Notes: generated from the sequence alone by a model not told the origin. A stretch of 64,000 nt of DNA from Dictyobacter arantiisoli (GCF_008326305.1 NZ_BIXY01000002.1:62001-126000), one strand, 5' to 3'. Shown: positions 46,311-60,998, counted from the stretch's first letter. Numbers and translations: made by a program.

Positions 46311-48179
46311 TTAATGAACGGGTAAGGGATGAGTATTACTCGGTGGATTGGTGGGTTGGCTTGTCGCCGTGTCTGAGACATTCGCCGGTCGGCGTCGCCA
46401 GAAGGTTGGCTTGCGCCCCAATTTGCCAGTGACAAAGAGGAAGAAGCAGACCATCAGGATCGTTTCGACAATATAGATGAACATGATGGATGGCAATTCG
46501 TAATTACCAATCCAGAAGGTTCCATTGGTGAAGTATGGTCCAATCGGAGCGGGCAGGATCTGGAAGATGAAAGATCCATTCCAGATGGCATGTTGTAAGA
46601 CAGCATACAATCCGCAACCGAGGCCAATCCAGATGCGTCTTTTGGGCAGCGCATCTTTATGTGTCAAAAGATACCAGCCCAGTGCTGTCATACCTGCGCC
46701 AAAGCTATGCAGCAAGCCAGCGGAACTACGCTGAATCGCGACATCCACCCAGTTGCTATAGCCCGAACTGATATAGCCAGAGGTCTCGATCAGATCAAAA
46801 CCGATGCCACAGGCCATACCCAGCAAAAACGCCTCGGCGGCGCTATGAATTCGTCCAACCAATGTCACCACAGCCAACGGCTTCACGCCCTCTTCGACTA
46901 GTGGAGCAACCACTGAGACAACCAGAAACAGATAGATGAGCGTTTTGCTATCATTGGGGATGGGCATATTTGGATCGCTCATATTAAAGCTATTAATATG
47001 CATGCTGGATACGAGAATGGCACTCAGGATCAGCTCAAAAATTGAGGCAAAGAGGATCGCTGAGGTTGCGCCACTGATCATGGCGATTGACAGACGGCGC
47101 CATGTCGTTGTCCAATGCTCATCCTGCTTATTATGGACGCGCCATACTCCCAGGCTCAAGATTGCCAATGCCGGCAGCATGCCTGCTAACGCGATCAGGA
47201 AGACCGTTAGCCAGGTTTGCTGAGCAACGTGATCATTGCCGCGCAGCATCAGGCCGATAGCGATCATCACCACATAGAACGCCAGGAAAAGCACAAACCA
47301 GGGGAGACGAAGCTTGCCCAGCGGGATCGACGGCAATTTGAACTCAATCGATTTACGTTGTCTAACTGCCATGATGCTATGATACAGCCCGAAGCTGCCG
47401 CCGACCAGGCCAGCGATTGTCAGAGCTGTCAGCATCGTAATACTGCTAAAAAGTTGCCCTGGCTTTGTCGTTGTCGCCTGCGTATATGGGGCCACGAGCG
47501 CGGTGATTAGTAAGAATAATGCACACAGCAGACCTGTTGCCAGCACAATACTGGAGCAGATAATTGAGATAATCGAAATCGTTAGCTGATAAACATCCCG
47601 TTTCGGCTTGAGTGACTGCCCATAATATCCATAGCCACCGTAGTAGCCATAGGGCGTATAAGGATAATATCCATTGCTATAAGGATAGCCATAACCGCCC
47701 TGGACAGGATATCCATACGGTTGTCCAGAATAGGGCTGCGCATACTGGACTGGATAAGGTTGTCCAGGATGCTGTTGTCCCATCTGCCCGGGATAAGGTT
47801 GTCCAGGATGCTGTTGTCCCATCTGCCCGGGATAGGGCTGTCTCCAGACCTGTCCCGGGGGATAGGTTGGATTATACGGCTGTTGATACTGAGGTGCGAT
47901 CGGTGGATAGACCGGTCGCACCATCGGAGGTTGTCCCGCCACAGGCGGATACGTGCCAGGTGTGCCCTGTGAACCTTGTAAACCTTGTGGAACATAAACG
48001 GGTTGTGCTGGCGTGGAACCTGTCCGATGGACGAGTGGTTGTGAAACATGTTCCCGATACTTTGGTTCCTCATAGCGAGCCGTTTGTCCAGGCTGCCGCC
48101 CATCTGTTGGCTGCTCTTCAGGATGGGTTCTTTTCTGCGTACTGGGATCTATTGGCGGACCCTTATATTCGAAACCCAC
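46311..48179 (-). CDS. PrsW family intramembrane metalloprotease with Pro/Gln/Tyr-rich N-terminus
   Basis: A 622-residue membrane protein. Residues 1 to about 205 are disordered and rich in Pro, Gln, Gly and Tyr, including an exact 13-residue tandem repeat (PYPGQMGQQHPGQ). About nine helices follow. PrsW hallmarks are seen: EEGVKPLAVV (Glu-Glu...Lys), FLLGMACGIGFDLIET and LLHSFGAGMTALGWY with the metal-binding His. PrsW cleaves anti-sigma factors in Bacillus. Here the target is unknown. A short basic tail ends the protein. No good ribosome-binding site is seen before the ATG. Confidence 0.85.
   Translation of the reverse strand: MGFEYKGPPIDPSTQKRTHPEEQPTDGRQPGQTARYEEPKYREHVSQPLVHRTGSTPAQPVYVPQGLQGSQGTPGTYPPVAGQPPMVRPVYPPIAPQYQQPYNPTYPPGQVWRQPYPGQMGQQHPGQPYPGQMGQQHPGQPYPVQYAQPYSGQPYGYPVQGGYGYPYSNGYYPYTPYGYYGGYGYYGQSLKPKRDVYQLTISIISIICSSIVLATGLLCALFLLITALVAPYTQATTTKPGQLFSSITMLTALTIAGLVGGSFGLYHSIMAVRQRKSIEFKLPSIPLGKLRLPWFVLFLAFYVVMIAIGLMLRGNDHVAQQTWLTVFLIALAGMLPALAILSLGVWRVHNKQDEHWTTTWRRLSIAMISGATSAILFASIFELILSAILVSSMHINSFNMSDPNMPIPNDSKTLIYLFLVVSVVAPLVEEGVKPLAVVTLVGRIHSAAEAFLLGMACGIGFDLIETSGYISSGYSNWVDVAIQRSSAGLLHSFGAGMTALGWYLLTHKDALPKRRIWIGLGCGLYAVLQHAIWNGSFIFQILPAPIGPYFTNGTFWIGNYELPSIMFIYIVETILMVCFFLFVTGKLGRKPTFWRRRPANVSDTATSQPTNPPSNTHPLPVH
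47752..47829. repeat. 39-bp exact tandem repeat inside the PrsW-like gene
   Basis: Two 39-bp units (47752-47790, 47791-47829), in frame as 13 codons each, encode the Pro/Gly/Gln repeat in the cytoplasmic N-terminus. Near-identity suggests recent duplication and possible copy-number change. Confidence 0.8.
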
Positions 48180-52687: not shown

Positions 52688-55159
52688 ATGGTTGATCAGA
52701 TTTCCTTTTTGATTGTTGGAAATGGCATTGCGGGCGTGACTGCTGCTGAGACATTGCGCAATGAAGCTCCAGAGGCGACGATTGGCGTGATTTCCGAAGA
52801 TGCTCATCCTGTGTACTTCCGTCCTGCTCTTAAGGATTATCTGGCTGGACGTGTGGCTGAGGAGAAGTTGTGGGCCCGCCCCGCGAAGTATTATGAGGGA
52901 TTGCAGATCCATTATCTGTCTGAGCGGGTGCGGGGCATTTATCCTTCTGAACATCTGATTTCCTTGCAAAGCGGAGGGCAGGTGCGCTATGAACAACTAT
53001 TGCTTGCCAGTGGAGCCCGCCCCGCTCGCCTGACGTGTCCCGGCTCTGATTTGCGGGGAGTGTTGACGTTGCGCAGTGTGGAAGATTATCGCAGTGCTCT
53101 GGAACGTCTTCCCCGGGTGCGTCGCGTGGTAGTGTGTGGCAGTGGGACGCTGGCTCTGGAGACAGTGGAGACGTTGCGCCATCGTGGCCTGGATGTGACG
53201 CATTTGATCCGTAAGAAGTTGATCTGGTCCGAGGTGTTGGATGCTACGGCTTCCGATCTAGTGATCCAGGAAGAGTTACGGGCGGGAGTGGATGTGTGTC
53301 TGGGGACTGAGATTATTGAGATTATTGGCGCTCGCGGCTCAGTGGTGGCTGTGAAGACGAATAGCGGCGAGCAGATCGCTTGCGAATTGGTGCTGATTGC
53401 GATTGGTATTGAGCCAAATATTGATTATGTGAAGTCCAGCAGTATCGCCTGCCGCCGTGGTGTCTATGTTGATGCTCATATGCGCACCAGCGCTCCCGAT
53501 GTCTATGCCGCGGGTGATGTGGTGGAGACCGTTAATCAAAGTACCAGCCAGACGCGTGTGATTGGTCAGTGGTATCCCGCTATTCAGCAGGCGCGCGCGG
53601 CCGCCTATAGTATGCTGGGCATTCTGGATGTGTCGCAGCCGTTTCATGCCGAGACGTTTTATAACGCGACCTTTCTCTATGGCTTGCCCTTCGCATCTAT
53701 CGGGATTACCAATGCACAGGGTTATCGCGAAGTGATCGCGGAGCCGCGACCACGCTCGTATCGCAAGGTTCTGCTCCGTGATGGTGTGCCTGTTGGGATG
53801 CTGGCTCTGGGAGATCGCAAGCATACGCTGGCCTTTAAGCGGGCGATTGATCATCGAGTGCCACTAGATGCTGTGGTAAACTCGTTGATGCATGATGATT
53901 TTGATCTGATTGCCTATCTGGATGGTTTGCATGTTCCTCCTTTGCAATTGGGTGTACGTAAGCAGGGAGATACTGGTGCTAATCCGGCAATCGTGGCTCT
54001 TGCTAACAAGGGGGCCGGGCAAGATGTAGAGGGTCCTATGTTAAATGAACTGGTTTCATCTGAGCAAACAGAAGCTTTTCTCGTCCATATCGTGGATGCA
54101 AATCTGCCTTTACGGGTGGCTGAGGCTCCTCTGAGTCGGCAGTTGATGCTGACGGTGGGACGGCAACCTGGCGTTGATCTGATGGTGAATGAAGCTTCTG
54201 TCTCGCGGCGACATGCATTGGTAGGCTATAGTTCCGGCAAATATCAGGTGCGAGATCTCGGTAGTTTGAATGGTACGTTTTTGAATGGTGAACGTTTAGA
54301 GGCTGAGCGTCTCTATGCCTTGAACGTCAACGATACCCTGCGTATTGGCAATGTGGTGACATTTCGCTTCCTGTTGCGTACCCTCAATTTAAGCAATCTT
54401 TCACCTGCTGGATCAGCGGTATCTACGCAGCAAAAAACGCCTGCCTCTGTTCAAGCATCGCAGCCAGTCGCGCAGTCAGTACCGGTTAGAGCAACTGACT
54501 TGCAGTTAGTGAATACTTTGTTGCCACTCAGTGCAGCCCAACCTCTACCACCCGCAATTGTCAACGCGCTTAAAAAAACGCCTGCCTTGATTATTCTACC
54601 GCCGAGCGTGCATGGAGAACAGAAACAGCATCCCCAGGTCTATCTTTTACAGGATAAGCGCTCTGTGAAGATTGGGCGCGATGCCAGCAATGACATCTCT
54701 TTGAACGATCTGGTGGTTTCACGCCAGCATGCGGAAGTTTTTCTCTCTTCCAGCTTTTTCTATATCCATGACGTTGGTAGCAGCAATGGCATTTCTGTCA
54801 ATCAGAGCCCGATTGATCAACCGTATCGGCTGGCCCACGGCGATCATATTCTGCTGGGTAATACTATTATCTTTTTTGTGGATCTGCAATCGGGACAAGA
54901 GAAGACTAGCAAATTGAAGAAGTTTCCTCATACTCCTGTGTCCCCGCGTGAGCCGCGCACTGCGCCTAAAACGTTGTCGCGTCCCGGTGTCAATACACAG
55001 GCCAGAGTGCCAACTGTGCCCGCGCAACATCCCTTCCAGACTAGCGTGGCACCCGTAAAAGTTGTGCTGTGTCCCCATTGTGGGGTTGTCAACATGCCTG
55101 TCGCGCGTTTTTGTGCTGGATGCAGCCAGCTACTGAACACGTCAGGGATGAATACCTGA
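52688..55159 (+). CDS. FAD/NAD(P) oxidoreductase fused to two FHA domains and a zinc ribbon
   Basis: An 823-residue fusion. Residues 1-420 are a pyridine nucleotide-disulfide type reductase like NirB and rubredoxin reductases: FAD loop LIVGNGIAGVTAAE (8-21), NAD loop VVCGSGTLALE (148-158), and YAAGDVVE (273-280). No redox-active CxxC is seen there. FHA1 (about 487-562) has GR, SVSRRH and LGSLNG; FHA2 (about 658-732) has GR, SRQH and VGSSNG. Both keep phosphothreonine-binding residues. A C-terminal zinc ribbon has Cys 795, 798, 809 and 812. It could pass NAD(P)H electrons to the ferredoxin encoded next, under phospho-signal control. The start is ATG 52688, 6 bp after TGAGG. Confidence 0.85.
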   Translation: MVDQISFLIVGNGIAGVTAAETLRNEAPEATIGVISEDAHPVYFRPALKDYLAGRVAEEKLWARPAKYYEGLQIHYLSERVRGIYPSEHLISLQSGGQVRYEQLLLASGARPARLTCPGSDLRGVLTLRSVEDYRSALERLPRVRRVVVCGSGTLALETVETLRHRGLDVTHLIRKKLIWSEVLDATASDLVIQEELRAGVDVCLGTEIIEIIGARGSVVAVKTNSGEQIACELVLIAIGIEPNIDYVKSSSIACRRGVYVDAHMRTSAPDVYAAGDVVETVNQSTSQTRVIGQWYPAIQQARAAAYSMLGILDVSQPFHAETFYNATFLYGLPFASIGITNAQGYREVIAEPRPRSYRKVLLRDGVPVGMLALGDRKHTLAFKRAIDHRVPLDAVVNSLMHDDFDLIAYLDGLHVPPLQLGVRKQGDTGANPAIVALANKGAGQDVEGPMLNELVSSEQTEAFLVHIVDANLPLRVAEAPLSRQLMLTVGRQPGVDLMVNEASVSRRHALVGYSSGKYQVRDLGSLNGTFLNGERLEAERLYALNVNDTLRIGNVVTFRFLLRTLNLSNLSPAGSAVSTQQKTPASVQASQPVAQSVPVRATDLQLVNTLLPLSAAQPLPPAIVNALKKTPALIILPPSVHGEQKQHPQVYLLQDKRSVKIGRDASNDISLNDLVVSRQHAEVFLSSSFFYIHDVGSSNGISVNQSPIDQPYRLAHGDHILLGNTIIFFVDLQSGQEKTSKLKKFPHTPVSPREPRTAPKTLSRPGVNTQARVPTVPAQHPFQTSVAPVKVVLCPHCGVVNMPVARFCAGCSQLLNTSGMNT

Positions 55160-55270
55160 TAAACCTGGCCTGGATTACATGTGCATGTGCATATATGTTG
55201 TTCTTGAGTGTTTACCGTCCCTGTAAAGCGCTGTTTTGATGTTGTGAGCGATTTTTGTAGTAAAGGTTCT

Positions 55271-57244
55271 ATGGAAAAAGGTTCTATAAACGTCCAGACT
55301 GCTCCTGATGTTCCCAATGCCTTGAACATTGGGATGACGCATCGCGCTGCTGTGCAGCCTTTGAGTGTGGAACAGGTACACTTTGAAATCGATATGTGTA
55401 TTGGCTGTGATCGTTGTATGCGTGCCTGTCCCGTGCCCCTATCGTCCCAGGTATCTATCGCCGAGTTAAATCACGCGACCGTTTCTTCTGAGGTGGCGTC
55501 ACATGTGGTGCGTTTTACCGACGAGTGTGTGATGTGCGGTTCCTGTGTCTCTGTCTGTCCCGTCGATAATCATCGCGACCTGCTGATGTTGTCTTTAAAG
55601 CAGCGCCTGGGCATTCCCTGGGATGGGCAGGTGGATCTCGCCCATGTGTGGGGAGATTTGCCTGAGGGCTGGACCGTAGAGTTACTGTTGCAGGCCCTGC
55701 GTGAGCAACCATTATTCCAGGATCGCCAGTTGGTCCCGGATAATTATTTGCTCCACTTTATCGCGACATCGCAATTGCGCATCCTGACGCCGGGTACTGA
55801 ATTGATGCGCGAGGGTGAATTTGGTCGCGAGATCTTTTTTCTGCTCGATGGTCTCTGCGAAGTCTTTTCTCAGGGAACCGATGCCGCTGATATGCCTATG
55901 GCGATCCTGCGCCGTGGCGAGTATGTTGGCGAACAAGGCATGCTGACCGGTCAGGCCCGCAATATTACTGCACGGGTCCAGCGTATTGCCACGGTGCTGG
56001 TGGTGCCGGAACAGGTAATGCAACGCTTGATTGAAATTGTTCCCGCTGTGCAGGATTTGTTTGAACAATCTGGCAATGCACGGGCCGTGGTTACGATTTT
56101 GTCGCGGCTGGATCTTTTTCAGGATCTGCCACAGGAGGAACTTCAGCAACTGGCCGGGCAGGCTGCGCTCAAGCGTTTTGATCGTTCCGCACAACTTTTT
56201 AGCGAGGATCAGCAGAATCAGCCTGAGCGCGAGTCGTTTCATCTCTTGTTGGATGGCTTTGTGAAGGTGGCTCGTAAGACGGGCCGTCCCCAGCCACCTG
56301 AACGGATTATCGCCTATCGCCAGCGTGGCGATTATTTTGCGGGCGGTCTGGATATGCTTGGTGATCGACGCGCCGTGACAGTGACCGCGATCACACGAGT
56401 TATCGTGGCCGAGTTCTCGCGCGCCCAACTCAAATCTCTGCTGTTGCGCTATCCCGCATTCAAAGAGCGTCTGCAGGAGCGAGTACACCTCTATCAGGAG
56501 GCGAAGGTCGCCGCTAATAGCGCCGTCTTTGAACCATTTGATCCCGCTGCGCTGCAAACATCTGTTGCCAATCTGGTATCGGAAGCCGAGGCACGCGCTG
56601 GCCTGCATGCCCTGGTGGATGATGGGGTGGTTGAAGGGACCGAAGTTCTGGTGATTGATCTGGACAAATGTATCCATTGCAATGAGTGCGAGGATGCATG
56701 CGAGCGCCGCCACGGACATTCCCGTATGAACCGTGAGGGGATGGTCGTTGGGAATATTAGCATTGTGACGGCCTGCCGCCAGTGCCAGGATCCTGTCTGC
56801 CTGCTCTGTAGCCGGGCCGGAATTGGCCGTAAGCCGAGCGGCGAAGTCTATATCACCGAGAGTTGTATCGGTTGTGGCATCTGCGCCGAGCGCTGTCCCT
56901 ATGATAATATCTCAATCGTTCCGCTGGGAGAAGAAGCGGATGAAGCGGTAGCACCTCAGACCTGGCAGCGCTTTAGCCGCTTCTTCAGTAAGGGCGCAGG
57001 CAAGGAGCGCGGTCGACGTGCGTTGCCCATGGCTCAAAGTGTGCTGGCCTCTGGACCGTTACAATTGGATCAAGCGGATGCGCTCAGCGAGATGCGCAAA
57101 AAGATTGCCATCAAGTGTGATCTCTGTGCGGGTTATGGCAATCAAGCCTGCGTCCAGGCCTGTCCCACCGGAGCAGCATTTCGTACCAATCCAGGGAGCT
57201 TCTTTGGTTCCACCGAAGACATTTTGCGCAGTCGTACGCGCTAA
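55271..57244 (+). CDS. Six-cluster ferredoxin with two cyclic-nucleotide-binding-like domains
   Basis: A 657-residue soluble protein. An N-terminal 2x[4Fe-4S] domain has Cys 43/46/49/53 and 86/89/92/96. Two cNMP-binding-like domains follow (about 160-265 and 280-395). The first keeps the GE and Arg of the phosphate cassette (GEQGMLTGQARNITA), the second is more divergent. A C-terminal polyferredoxin of the DmsB/HycB type has four clusters: Cys 467/470/473/477, 502/505/510/513, 532/535/538/542 and 616/619/627/631. It probably relays electrons between the FAD protein and the membrane cytochrome, gated by a ligand. ATG 55271 has AAAGG upstream; a GTG at 55208 is less likely. Confidence 0.85.
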   Translation: MEKGSINVQTAPDVPNALNIGMTHRAAVQPLSVEQVHFEIDMCIGCDRCMRACPVPLSSQVSIAELNHATVSSEVASHVVRFTDECVMCGSCVSVCPVDNHRDLLMLSLKQRLGIPWDGQVDLAHVWGDLPEGWTVELLLQALREQPLFQDRQLVPDNYLLHFIATSQLRILTPGTELMREGEFGREIFFLLDGLCEVFSQGTDAADMPMAILRRGEYVGEQGMLTGQARNITARVQRIATVLVVPEQVMQRLIEIVPAVQDLFEQSGNARAVVTILSRLDLFQDLPQEELQQLAGQAALKRFDRSAQLFSEDQQNQPERESFHLLLDGFVKVARKTGRPQPPERIIAYRQRGDYFAGGLDMLGDRRAVTVTAITRVIVAEFSRAQLKSLLLRYPAFKERLQERVHLYQEAKVAANSAVFEPFDPAALQTSVANLVSEAEARAGLHALVDDGVVEGTEVLVIDLDKCIHCNECEDACERRHGHSRMNREGMVVGNISIVTACRQCQDPVCLLCSRAGIGRKPSGEVYITESCIGCGICAERCPYDNISIVPLGEEADEAVAPQTWQRFSRFFSKGAGKERGRRALPMAQSVLASGPLQLDQADALSEMRKKIAIKCDLCAGYGNQACVQACPTGAAFRTNPGSFFGSTEDILRSRTR

Positions 57245-57326
57245 GTTTGCTACAGGACTATTCATTCTGCCTGCATCCCTTCCAGGATAGATGTTACAGG
57301 CAAAACAGACATTGAAGGAGCATCTT

Positions 57327-58199
57327 ATGTCGTTGACGTCGAAACAATCGCAACAGCCACGCGGTCTGCGACGCCTCTGGCGCGTTCCCACTTCGCCAGC
57401 ACGCTGGTTCTGGTTAGGTGGCAGTGCCTTGCTCTATGTCGCACTACTGATCTGGTATTATTATGCCCTGCGCGTTCAGGCTTATCCCGGGCCTTTGACA
57501 GATCCTTTACGCCTCTTTGGGATCATCGCCTTTGTGCTGGTGCTGACAACCGCGGGATATTCATTGCGACGACGTTTTGTGCGCCAGTTGCCTGGTAAGG
57601 TCCAGGATTGGTTGTGGATGCATATATGGTTTGGTATGATTACCATTTTGATCGCACTCCTGCATGACAATTATGGTCGTATCACCAATGATTTTTGCCA
57701 GAATCTCGCTTGCCTGACCGATACCTATTGGGCTACCAGCGCCCTCTTCGCGCTTATTTTCCTGGTCGTGAGCGGCATTATCGGTCGTTTGTTTGATTTC
57801 TGGCAAACCAGAGTGATTGCCCGCGAGGCCAGTTCCAATGGTGTAGGGATCGAGCGTGCGGTCGAGGAGCGCCTGCGCGAGCTTGAATATACCATTGAGC
57901 GCTACTGTGCCGGTAAATCCGATGATTTTAAGCGCATCTGTATGCAGACTGTGAAAGGACATGGAGCGTCCTTTGCTGAGCCAGAGCAGATGGTTGAATC
58001 TGAAAGGGCAGATTGGCAGAGTGTGCAGTCTTCCTTGCAGGATCATATACTCCTCTCACGCTCCCTGCATCGCCAGCGGCGTGCACGCCACCTGATTCGT
58101 AACTGGCGTGTTGTCCATGTCACGCTCGCCTGCCTCTCACTGCTTGTTATCAGCTATCATGGGATCATGGAATTGCTTACCAACGTATTGCATTTTTAA
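57327..58199 (+). CDS. Membrane protein with two His-x13-His pairs, probable diheme cytochrome b
   Basis: A 290-residue membrane protein with about five helices. His99 and His113 lie in one helix (WMHIW...LLHD), and His264 and His278 in the last helix (VVHVT...SYHG). Each pair is exactly 14 apart, the spacing used for bis-His ligation of two hemes in cytochrome b and ferric-reductase-like proteins. A charged cytoplasmic loop (about 160-260) connects the helices. It is the likely membrane partner of the ferredoxin encoded upstream. Heme binding and the electron acceptor are inferred. ATG 57327 has AAGGAG; the longer frame from 57291 overlaps no better site. Confidence 0.75.
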   Translation: MSLTSKQSQQPRGLRRLWRVPTSPARWFWLGGSALLYVALLIWYYYALRVQAYPGPLTDPLRLFGIIAFVLVLTTAGYSLRRRFVRQLPGKVQDWLWMHIWFGMITILIALLHDNYGRITNDFCQNLACLTDTYWATSALFALIFLVVSGIIGRLFDFWQTRVIAREASSNGVGIERAVEERLRELEYTIERYCAGKSDDFKRICMQTVKGHGASFAEPEQMVESERADWQSVQSSLQDHILLSRSLHRQRRARHLIRNWRVVHVTLACLSLLVISYHGIMELLTNVLHF

Positions 58200-58320: not shown

Positions 58321-59736
58321 ATGATGCTCTGCCCAAGTTGTCAAGCGCCTGTTGAGGCGGATTCTGTCTTTTGTGGTCATTGTGGCTCACCTTTGCCCCC
58401 ACTTCATTTGCGTGACCTGGGAGTCTCAGATGACACGCGAACGATCCAGCGTTCAAATGAAGCGGGAAATAGCACTGTGAGCGCGGAAAACCATCAAATG
58501 TCTCCTATGCCGCATTTGCCAGTCGCAGTCTTTCCTTTGACACCTGCCCCACTGCGTGCCATAAGCGCCTCATCTTCCACACCGGAGCACGATCTTTCAT
58601 CTCATTCCTCGCATCCTCCGCGTGCACGTTTCTCCAAAAGAACGTCGCATTCTAGCACTGGACGCAATCTCGTTTCAGTAGCGATTATTCTGGTATTGTT
58701 GGGAATTGGTATTGCCGCAGGCGTCCTGGCGCTCTGGCAGAATAAGAACCTGATTTCCAGGATGATGCCCGTTAAAGACAGCACAGCCCTGCCGCAAGGG
58801 ATAAGCGGCAGGATTTCATTCTCTGGTAGTGATGCCGCGATCCTGAAAACTGACAGCCTGGCAATTCATATCAATGGCCTGCATATCCCTGCTGGCAACG
58901 CGCACTACGAAGCCTGGATGCTGGATTTGCAGGATGAAACGCGTATCCAATCCCTGGGACCGCTGATACAAACGGGTGAAGGATACACGCTTAATTTTAC
59001 CGATCCAAATGGCAATATTCTGAAGCTCGGCAATCGTATTGAGGTTTCGCTTGAAACCACGCACACAACCCTGCCCACTGGTCATGTCGTATTAAGCGCC
59101 ACCCTTCCACCGCTCGCACTGGTGCATATTCGCCACCTGCTGGTTAGTTATCCAGACACTCCCCATTACATTGGTCTGCTGGATGGTTTGCAGTCGCAGG
59201 CCGCAGTCTTCTACCAGCAATCCCAATTATTGGGCATCACACACAACAAAACGAATATCCAGTGTATTGCGCGCAACCTCATCACCATTATCGATGGCAA
59301 ATTGCCGACCACTGATACTCCCAATGCCAGGACCTGCAATGCCCGACAGATCACCCAGATCGCGCCTGATTACGGCCTGCTCGGCACTATGAACAATGGC
59401 TATGTACACATGGTAGGGGTGCATGCATCCCTGGCTGCGACCCAGGCTGATGCTACTGATACCATCAGGCACTACGCGCAGCAAGTCATCCTCGCCAGTG
59501 ACAATCTCCAGGGTTGGTATAGCATCCTCGATCAGGACGCACAAAGCTTATTAAAAAATCCTGATGATCCAGCCAAAATACATGACATCACCAGTTTGGC
59601 TGATCATGCTCTGAACGGTTTTGATGCCAATCATGATGGCAACATCGCGCCCCAGAAAAACGAAGCGGGCGTTATGCAGGCTTATCTCTATGGACAATCC
59701 ATGGCAACCATGTTTCTCAGCACCCCTGGAGCTTAA
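58321..59736 (+). CDS. Zinc-ribbon membrane protein with RskA-like extracytoplasmic domain
   Basis: A 471-residue protein. An N-terminal zinc ribbon has CPSC and CGHC (Cys 4, 7, 18, 21), like the ribbon ending the FAD-FHA protein. A disordered linker and one membrane helix (about 118-142) follow. The outer part (about 160-255) resembles the anti-sigma-K/RskA fold (AHYEAWMLDL, SLGPL). Residues near 435 show DANHDGNIAP, an EF-hand or dockerin-like calcium loop. The function is unknown; it may be a sensor linked to the redox genes upstream. The gap to the cytochrome gene is 121 bp, and AAAGGAAA precedes the ATG. Confidence 0.65.
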   Translation: MMLCPSCQAPVEADSVFCGHCGSPLPPLHLRDLGVSDDTRTIQRSNEAGNSTVSAENHQMSPMPHLPVAVFPLTPAPLRAISASSSTPEHDLSSHSSHPPRARFSKRTSHSSTGRNLVSVAIILVLLGIGIAAGVLALWQNKNLISRMMPVKDSTALPQGISGRISFSGSDAAILKTDSLAIHINGLHIPAGNAHYEAWMLDLQDETRIQSLGPLIQTGEGYTLNFTDPNGNILKLGNRIEVSLETTHTTLPTGHVVLSATLPPLALVHIRHLLVSYPDTPHYIGLLDGLQSQAAVFYQQSQLLGITHNKTNIQCIARNLITIIDGKLPTTDTPNARTCNARQITQIAPDYGLLGTMNNGYVHMVGVHASLAATQADATDTIRHYAQQVILASDNLQGWYSILDQDAQSLLKNPDDPAKIHDITSLADHALNGFDANHDGNIAPQKNEAGVMQAYLYGQSMATMFLSTPGA

Positions 59737-60149: not shown

Positions 60150-60998
60150 GTGGAGCACGATGATATTTCGATACGCAACACCCTCAACGAATTGACGGGT
60201 GCTGAGTGGCTCTATTTTACAAAAAGTATTATCACGACCTCGTATCCCTCAGAGTATGGACACAAATTGCGCAAAGCCCATGGTGCCAATAAGCCACCTC
60301 AATTGATGTGTCAACTGATCGAGTTTTTCACCAAGCCCGATGGCGTTGTGTTAGATCCTTTCGCGGGTGTTGGTGGCACTTTAATTGGCGCATCTATCTG
60401 TAAGAAACCACGCCAGGCATTAGGCATTGAGATCAATCAGAAATGGGTAGCTATTTATCAGCAAATCCTGGCTGAGAATCAGGATATCCTTCAACCCCAG
60501 ACTCTCCTGCATGGAGATTGCTTGCAGATCATGCAGACGCTCGCCCCGCACTCCTTTGATTTTATCGCCACCGATCCACCCTACAACATCCATCTTGCCA
60601 AAACCATGGTCAATCCACGCTATGCTGAGCTCTATGCCAATCGGCGTAGTGACTATGATATGCGCTCGGAGGATGCCGCCGATTTAGCCAATCTCGCCAG
60701 CTATGAAGCTTATCTCGATGCCATGGAACGTGTCTTCGCCGCTTGCTATACTCTGCTCAAGCCGCAGAAGTATATGGTCGTGATTGTTAGAAATGCCTAT
60801 CAGCATGGTGAATATATGTTTACCCATGTTGATCTGGCGCGTCGCGCAAAACTACATGGCTTTGTGCCGAAAGGTGAGATCATCTGGTATCAATCTGGTA
60901 CGCGTTTGCGCCCTTATGGCTATCCTTTTGCTTATATTCCTAATATCGCGCATCAATATATTGTGGTTTTACAAAAGCCGAAGCAATTTGTGGTGTGA
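60150..60998 (+). CDS. DNA N6-adenine or N4-cytosine methyltransferase, orphan
   Basis: A 282-residue amino-methyltransferase. SAM-binding motif I is LDPFAGVGGTLIGA (about 69-82). The catalytic motif IV is TDPPYNI (about 140), and motif I comes first, as in gamma-like order. The TDPPYNIH form fits N6-adenine or N4-cytosine enzymes. A target recognition region lies between about 150 and 205. No restriction enzyme or specificity gene is near, so it is probably a solitary regulator or a remnant of a restriction system. RNA methylation is a possible alternative. The GTG start has AAAGGGGAG upstream. Confidence 0.8.
   Translation: MEHDDISIRNTLNELTGAEWLYFTKSIITTSYPSEYGHKLRKAHGANKPPQLMCQLIEFFTKPDGVVLDPFAGVGGTLIGASICKKPRQALGIEINQKWVAIYQQILAENQDILQPQTLLHGDCLQIMQTLAPHSFDFIATDPPYNIHLAKTMVNPRYAELYANRRSDYDMRSEDAADLANLASYEAYLDAMERVFAACYTLLKPQKYMVVIVRNAYQHGEYMFTHVDLARRAKLHGFVPKGEIIWYQSGTRLRPYGYPFAYIPNIAHQYIVVLQKPKQFVV

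Follow-up and report, generated by a model that had tools for sequence, protein, structure and literature searches.

A putative NAD(P)H-driven transmembrane electron-transfer module with FHA and cyclic nucleotide-binding domains in Dictyobacter arantiisoli

Members of the ferric reductase superfamily carry transmembrane b haems on pairs of His residues located in transmembrane segments (TM) 3 and 5 (PMC3591440). Among the flavinylation-linked transmembrane systems, some MsrQ-like clusters have a NuoF-like donor (PMC8238504), and the inner-membrane cytochrome CbcL is a single fused protein of the HydC/FdnI type, with a proposed quinol electron input (PMC6295460). The window analysed here, 64,000 nucleotides of the 7.2 Mb genome of Dictyobacter arantiisoli (NZ_BIXY01000002.1:62001-126000), contains at positions 52688-58199 three consecutive co-directional genes on the + strand, g1, g2 and g3, located where a preliminary description of this DNA had put them. 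They encode a FAD/NAD(P)H oxidoreductase with FHA domains, a ferredoxin with cyclic nucleotide-binding (CNB) domains and a small membrane protein, respectively. The three products probably constitute one membrane-bound electron-transfer complex, in which electrons would pass from NAD(P)H to FAD, from FAD to Fe-S clusters and from these to two b haems across the membrane. We infer the cofactors, the direction of electron flow, complex formation, the acceptor and the gating from what can be read in the sequence: the parts, their order, the fusions, the invariant Cys and His residues and the family relationships. No description of this family or domain combination was found in the open-access literature searched, and a bacterial electron-export chain in which a second messenger gates the wire by binding directly to it is not known to us.

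The gene g2 is present in 18 of the 29 Ktedonobacteraceae genomes and in no other genomes of the class, and the order g1-g2-g3 is found in every locus with complete flanks of these 18 genomes. The co-occurrence search that had been suggested thus finds the three genes together, and the outcomes named in advance as contrary to a module (homologues apart, His pairs not conserved, gene order not conserved) did not appear. The gaps between genes are of about 111 bases (g1-g2) and 82 bases (g2-g3), using the starts supported by relatives. A single fused protein combines g1 and g2 in three loci (L044, L045 and L025), two adjacent proteins (one a reductase, the other with FHA) replace g1 in L037, and in L046 g2 is broken across two frames, which is either a real break or an assembly error. 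A divergent dnaE gene is located upstream of the module in several loci. Outside the Ktedonobacteraceae, g2 of the type found in the window was not found in 84,980 species genomes searched with two peptide patterns, which may miss divergent members, nor in 400 Chloroflexota genomes or in plasmids.

The third gene, g3 (57327..58199), encodes a candidate bis-haem cytochrome b with five predicted TM, delimited by alignment, hydropathy and a structure model. Its longest open reading frame (ORF) begins at 57291, and the ATG at 57327 is favoured by relatives and by a GAAGGAG Shine-Dalgarno ribosome-binding site at 57314..57320. As previously described, H-x13-H occurs exactly twice in the protein: as H99/H113 in TM3 (57609..57665) and as H264/H278 in TM5 (58110..58166), residues being counted from the ATG at 57327. 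Hydropathy and a moderate model place the N terminus inside and predict a TM4-TM5 loop of about 100 residues. By the positive-inside rule, this long loop and the basic TM2-TM3 loop are cytosolic, and each pair has one His per membrane face, with H99 and H264 on the cytosolic side and H113 and H278 on the outer side. Because the rule puts the TM4-TM5 loop in the cytosol, it is a likely docking site for g2. At least two H-x13-H pairs occur in 1.9% of shuffles of the g3 sequence (P ~0.02), so a single sequence gives only weak grounds for excluding chance; invariance rules it out, since all four His are present in the 18 window-type proteins and both pairs in 59/59 wider relatives inspected from Chloroflexota, Planctomycetota and Desulfobacterota. 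When 21 members of three subfamilies are aligned, just seven columns are invariant, and these hold the four His, two Gly and a Trp.

Assignment of g3 to the ferric reductase or cytochrome b561 families was considered and rejected, since its Pfam matches are sub-threshold and no PDB match was obtained, either by sequence or, from a model of moderate quality, by fold. Against PF01794 (Ferric_reduct), g3 scores 15.6 bits, with a gathering threshold of 28; the best E is 2.1e-4 and matches are found in 7 of 21 relatives. Comparison by hhalign with E. coli MsrQ, YodB, CybB and HyaC shows no similarity, a weak test as single sequences were used. On these sequence criteria, g3 belongs to a membrane family outside Pfam coverage. 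A function like that of NOX, ferric reductases and STEAP, in which Fe(III)/Cu(II) or O2 would be reduced by g3 on the outer side of the membrane, draws on the TM3 and TM5 location of the His pairs, which the ferric reductase superfamily shares (PMC3591440), and on Ferric_reduct, one of the two commonest sub-threshold Pfam hits in the membrane family. We regard it as unlikely; none of the genes adjoining g1-g3 in the window was recognised as a metal transporter. Moreover, six-cluster ferredoxins are not known to be part of ferric reductase, NOX or STEAP members.

The first gene, g1 (52688..55159), encodes a protein of 823 residues in which Pfam and an alignment of 15 proteins (43-68% identity) delimit an oxidoreductase domain, a rubredoxin-reductase-like C-terminal domain (residues 332-389), two FHA domains and a zinc ribbon. 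The oxidoreductase domain (residues 7-302; 52706..53593) matches Pyr_redox_2 of Pfam with E 1.3e-49, is also supported by NCBIfam and alignment, and does not contain the active-site Cys-x4-Cys, which points to the ferredoxin-reductase type with no active-site disulfide. The nearest NCBIfam models are PadH, HcaD and NirB, all of them with g1 far under their cutoffs. The FHA family (PF00498) matches two stretches of g1 with E 1.1e-38 and 131.9 bits, against a gathering threshold of 20.7. In FHA1 (54143..54355; Pfam, NCBIfam and alignment), the Gly-Arg, Ser-Arg and Asn-Gly of the phosphothreonine pocket are invariant and the His is nearly invariant. FHA2 (54665..54859; Pfam and alignment) is missing from 3/15 aligned proteins, so that the domains previously attributed to g1 are all present and only the second FHA domain is not universal. 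The C-terminal zinc ribbon (55061..55126; Pfam and alignment) is slightly under the Pfam cutoff, yet C795, C798, C809 and C812 are all invariant.

The second gene, g2 (55271..57244; Pfam and alignment), has its longest ORF from a GTG at 55208, the ATG at 55271 being favoured by relatives. It encodes a six-[4Fe-4S] ferredoxin with two clusters, CNB1, CNB2 and four clusters, in this order. The protein has 25 Cys, 24 of them in six [4Fe-4S] motifs, and all 24 are invariant among 18 aligned proteins. Its N-terminal two-cluster ferredoxin (55382..55570, from sequence comparison) shows 48% identity to a free 102-residue ferredoxin encoded by a second module of the same genome. The CNB family (PF00027) matches g2 in two stretches with 82.4 bits, against a gathering threshold of 27.5. 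CNB1 (55781..56035; Pfam and alignment) has the phosphate-binding cassette GEQGMLTGQARNIT, in which Gly-Glu is invariant and Arg is found in 15/18 proteins, with Asn instead of Ala/Ser/Thr after the Arg. CNB2 (56165..56449; alignment, with boundaries from the structure model) has the cassette FAGGLDMLGDRRAVT, where the position of the Glu is occupied by Glu in 0/18 proteins and by Gly in nearly all. The two cNMP (cyclic nucleotide)-binding-like domains between the cluster groups are therefore as they had been described, except that the Glu found in functional cNMP pockets is missing from CNB2. The C-terminal four-cluster domain (56633..57175; NCBIfam and structure match) is DmsB/ArrB-like: it matches ArrB (6cz7_B) with E 3.6e-10, and against the DmsB-type four-cluster subunit (TIGR02951) it reaches 39.3 bits of a cutoff of 214.1, with the 16 cluster Cys present and invariant. 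This likeness to ArrB/DmsB subunits would also suit a g2 at the centre of a soluble enzyme in the cytosol, perhaps together with a molybdo-enzyme whose gene is elsewhere in the genome, g3 being just an anchor or redox sensor. Such an arrangement seems very improbable, as no catalytic gene of this kind was recognised among the ORFs adjoining the module, the four g3 His are invariant, and fusions and operons directly link FAD reductase, ferredoxin and membrane protein.

Sequence relationships indicate that the g1-g3 module is an elaborate version of a wider family that usually ends in a multihaem cytochrome c. The preliminary description, which rightly saw one module, had missed this family, its last step and a simpler copy in the same genome. 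This copy (G000:C70:9873-13048; L027 2873-6048) contains a FAD reductase without FHA, the 102-residue two-cluster ferredoxin mentioned above and a membrane protein with both His pairs, and its genes follow those of a GAF histidine kinase and a response regulator of the LuxR type. The simpler core module is spread across Ktedonobacterales, where in many cases it follows a histidine kinase gene and a response regulator gene, and all 29/29 Ktedonobacteraceae genomes have at least one membrane-family member. In the tree, the window-type and core-type membrane proteins form one clade each, and both together form one clade (support 100/97). Members of the membrane family were found in 59/400 Chloroflexota, 59/199 Planctomycetota and 9/198 Desulfobacterota genomes, the labels of the last two phyla resting on the loci used as centres (L105 and L102). 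Neighbours were counted on the same strand within 6 kb, cytochromes c being proteins with at least four CxxCH motifs, and the loci were drawn from the better matches, so the counts are not unbiased frequencies. A multihaem cytochrome c is located by the membrane protein in 16/18 other Chloroflexota, 20/20 Planctomycetota and 9/9 Desulfobacterota loci, that is, in 45/47 loci outside Ktedonobacterales. The FAD reductase adjoins the membrane protein in 30/30 Ktedonobacterales and 14/18 other Chloroflexota loci. In the Chloroflexota families f9, f15 and f22 the operon consists of a two-cluster ferredoxin, a FAD reductase, the membrane protein and a multihaem cytochrome, and the cytochromes of operons of this type match the Pfam cytochrome c3/c7 families.

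Planctomycetota loci show further combinations. In L236 (6466-8763), one chain of 766 residues contains two [4Fe-4S] motifs, the FAD reductase and the bis-His membrane domain, and is followed by a 23-haem cytochrome; L237 and L253 seem similar by length and position. Other loci show a CNB-ferredoxin of the g2 architecture directly 5' of the membrane protein and a decahaem cytochrome, and in three of these CNB-ferredoxin loci a NuoEF-like protein is nearby in place of g1. At the threshold used, the similarity of these CNB-ferredoxins to g2 lies largely in the CNB domains and the C-terminal clusters. That of L197 has the canonical Gly-Glu and Arg in both CNB cassettes, and that of L248 is fused to an FHA domain (E 1.2e-9). 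FHA domains are also fused to decahaem cytochromes c in L247 (8571-10979; E 6e-17) and L248 (9149-11431; E 5e-17). Because these FHA fusions and CNB-ferredoxins of Planctomycetota are found with the membrane family, FHA and CNB domains have become part of this type of chain in two phyla. A class III cyclase gene is located beside a pair of membrane-family and multihaem cytochrome genes in L243 (5221-6975; Planctomycetota), and giant cytochromes are encoded by the membrane protein in L168 (11132-14260; 41 CxxCH) and L201 (1-3488; 51 CxxCH).

The path from NAD(P)H to FAD, Fe-S and haem b suggested in the preliminary description is well supported by comparative genomics, namely by the gene order, the g1-g2 fusions, the Planctomycetota fusion of ferredoxin, FAD reductase and membrane domain, and the four invariant His. 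In the proposed mechanism, the FAD on g1 would be reduced by NAD(P)H, and electrons would pass to the two N-terminal clusters of g2, to its remaining clusters and then to g3, where they would cross the cytoplasmic membrane from the inner haem (H99/H264) to the outer haem (H113/H278). The next carrier would be the multihaem cytochrome c in most relatives; in Ktedonobacteraceae the acceptor could be menaquinone, or be extracytoplasmic (a metal, O2 or a protein such as the product of g4, the gene 3' of g3).

Several observations weigh against the proposed electron-transfer complex. Cytochrome c is found at 0/30 Ktedonobacterales loci, the g3 model is of moderate quality (pLDDT 74) and gave no PDB fold match at E <= 0.001, and the model of the C-terminal four-cluster part of g2 has poor confidence, because of which a continuous cluster wire through g2 is unproven. 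A different partner may be the target of the four extra g2 clusters, and the loss of the Glu from CNB2 and the Asn that follows the Arg in CNB1 put the nature of the ligand in doubt. The first of these points also bears on a NAD(P)H:menaquinone oxidoreductase, in which the b haems of g3 would reduce quinone within the membrane and nothing would leave the cell, the module then being an extra regulated dehydrogenase of the aerobic chain. This is a possible outcome of the proposed complex and not its opposite, and we hold it as a tentative alternative. In addition to the absence of cytochrome c at the 30 loci, no homologue of the Chloroflexota multihaem cytochrome was found in 47 genomes of the class, in a search without a positive control. 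The respiratory set described in Ktedonobacteria includes Nuo, Ndh, bcc:aa3 and bd (PMC13374853). However, no quinone site was identified, the family neighbours extracytoplasmic cytochromes elsewhere, and H113/H278, the ligands of the outer haem, are retained. The four-cluster part of g2, on the other side, favours menaquinone, as DmsB/ArrB-like four-cluster subunits work with quinone-linked enzymes.

With regard to regulation of the electron-transfer complex, the FHA domains of g1 and CNB1 of g2 would probably tune assembly or flow upon Ser/Thr phosphorylation and cyclic nucleotide. The gating by phosphorylation and nucleotide proposed earlier agrees with FHA1 and CNB1, which look intact, but not with CNB2; such gating is plausible, though unproven. 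Because CNB-ferredoxins with FHA accompany the same membrane family in another phylum, regulation is likely. The D. arantiisoli genome itself encodes two class III nucleotide cyclase domains. A flavin, Fe-S and b-haem module with FHA and cNMP domains, found in two phyla and with NAD(P)H inputs that differ, makes second-messenger gating directly testable, and g3 provides a sequence handle on an apparently undescribed inner-membrane cytochrome family located beside multihaem cytochromes in three phyla, with bearing on possible electron export from Chloroflexota and Planctomycetota cells. It is conceivable, as a broader and more speculative proposal, that these proteins represent a new class of NAD(P)H-driven conduit on a new bis-haem b family, switched directly by cyclic nucleotide and Ser/Thr phosphorylation, which ends in multihaem cytochromes in Planctomycetota and most other Chloroflexota and was rewired to another acceptor in Ktedonobacteraceae.

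Downstream of g3, g4 (58321..59736, + strand; Pfam and locus comparison) encodes a protein in which a zinc ribbon at the N terminus and a single TM accompany a large domain of unknown type. It is located 3' of g3 in 9/18 related loci holding g3 and is a possible accessory part of the module. Elsewhere in the window, a gene at 46311-48179 encodes a membrane protein with an N terminus of Tyr/Pro/Gly/Gln-rich repeats and an EEGVK motif, presumably reminiscent of PrsW-type proteases, and an ORF at 60150-60998 is a candidate DNA methyltransferase (DPPY motif).

Compared with known systems, g1 has PadH of phenylglyoxylate dehydrogenase as its top NCBIfam match, a FAD reductase that works together with Fe-S subunits; however, g1 stays far under the PadH equivalog (NF045765) cutoff of 475, with 192.9 bits, carries added FHA domains, and no 2-oxoacid dehydrogenase genes are seen at its locus. 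The ferric reductase superfamily (NOX, FRE, YedZ/MsrQ and STEAP; PF01794) shares with the module the His pairs in TM3 and TM5, which in g3 would hold b haems, and the NAD(P)H-flavin input (PMC3591440), but has six TM, whereas five are predicted in g3 by hydropathy and a moderate model, and the module puts a separate ferredoxin between flavin and haem. The NOX2 pairs, 101/115 and 209/222, have x13 and x12 spacing (PMC3591440), whereas g3 and 59/59 wider relatives have x13 in both. The module would act like ferric reductases, NOX and MsrPQ, but g3 is not filed in that superfamily because it falls under the Pfam cutoff and its His spacing differs. The flavinylation-linked systems (NapH-, MsrQ-, PepSY-, DsbD- and RNF/NQR-like) likewise have a cytosolic donor, a membrane carrier and an extracytoplasmic acceptor (PMC8238504), the acceptor in g3 relatives being a multihaem cytochrome c. 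Their MsrQ-like class is defined by a PF01794 protein in a flavinylation cluster (PMC8238504), and g3 is under the PF01794 cutoff; flavinylation genes were not searched for. The inner-membrane cytochromes CbcL, MtrH and MtoC, which belong to extracellular electron transfer (PMC6295460), also show a two-haem b-type membrane part and a multihaem c part, but in contrast to CbcL the input of the g3 family would be a FAD reductase and ferredoxin, or NuoEF and a CNB-ferredoxin. The module would also work in the manner of the inner-membrane parts of extracellular electron transfer systems, but its membrane protein is a different one.

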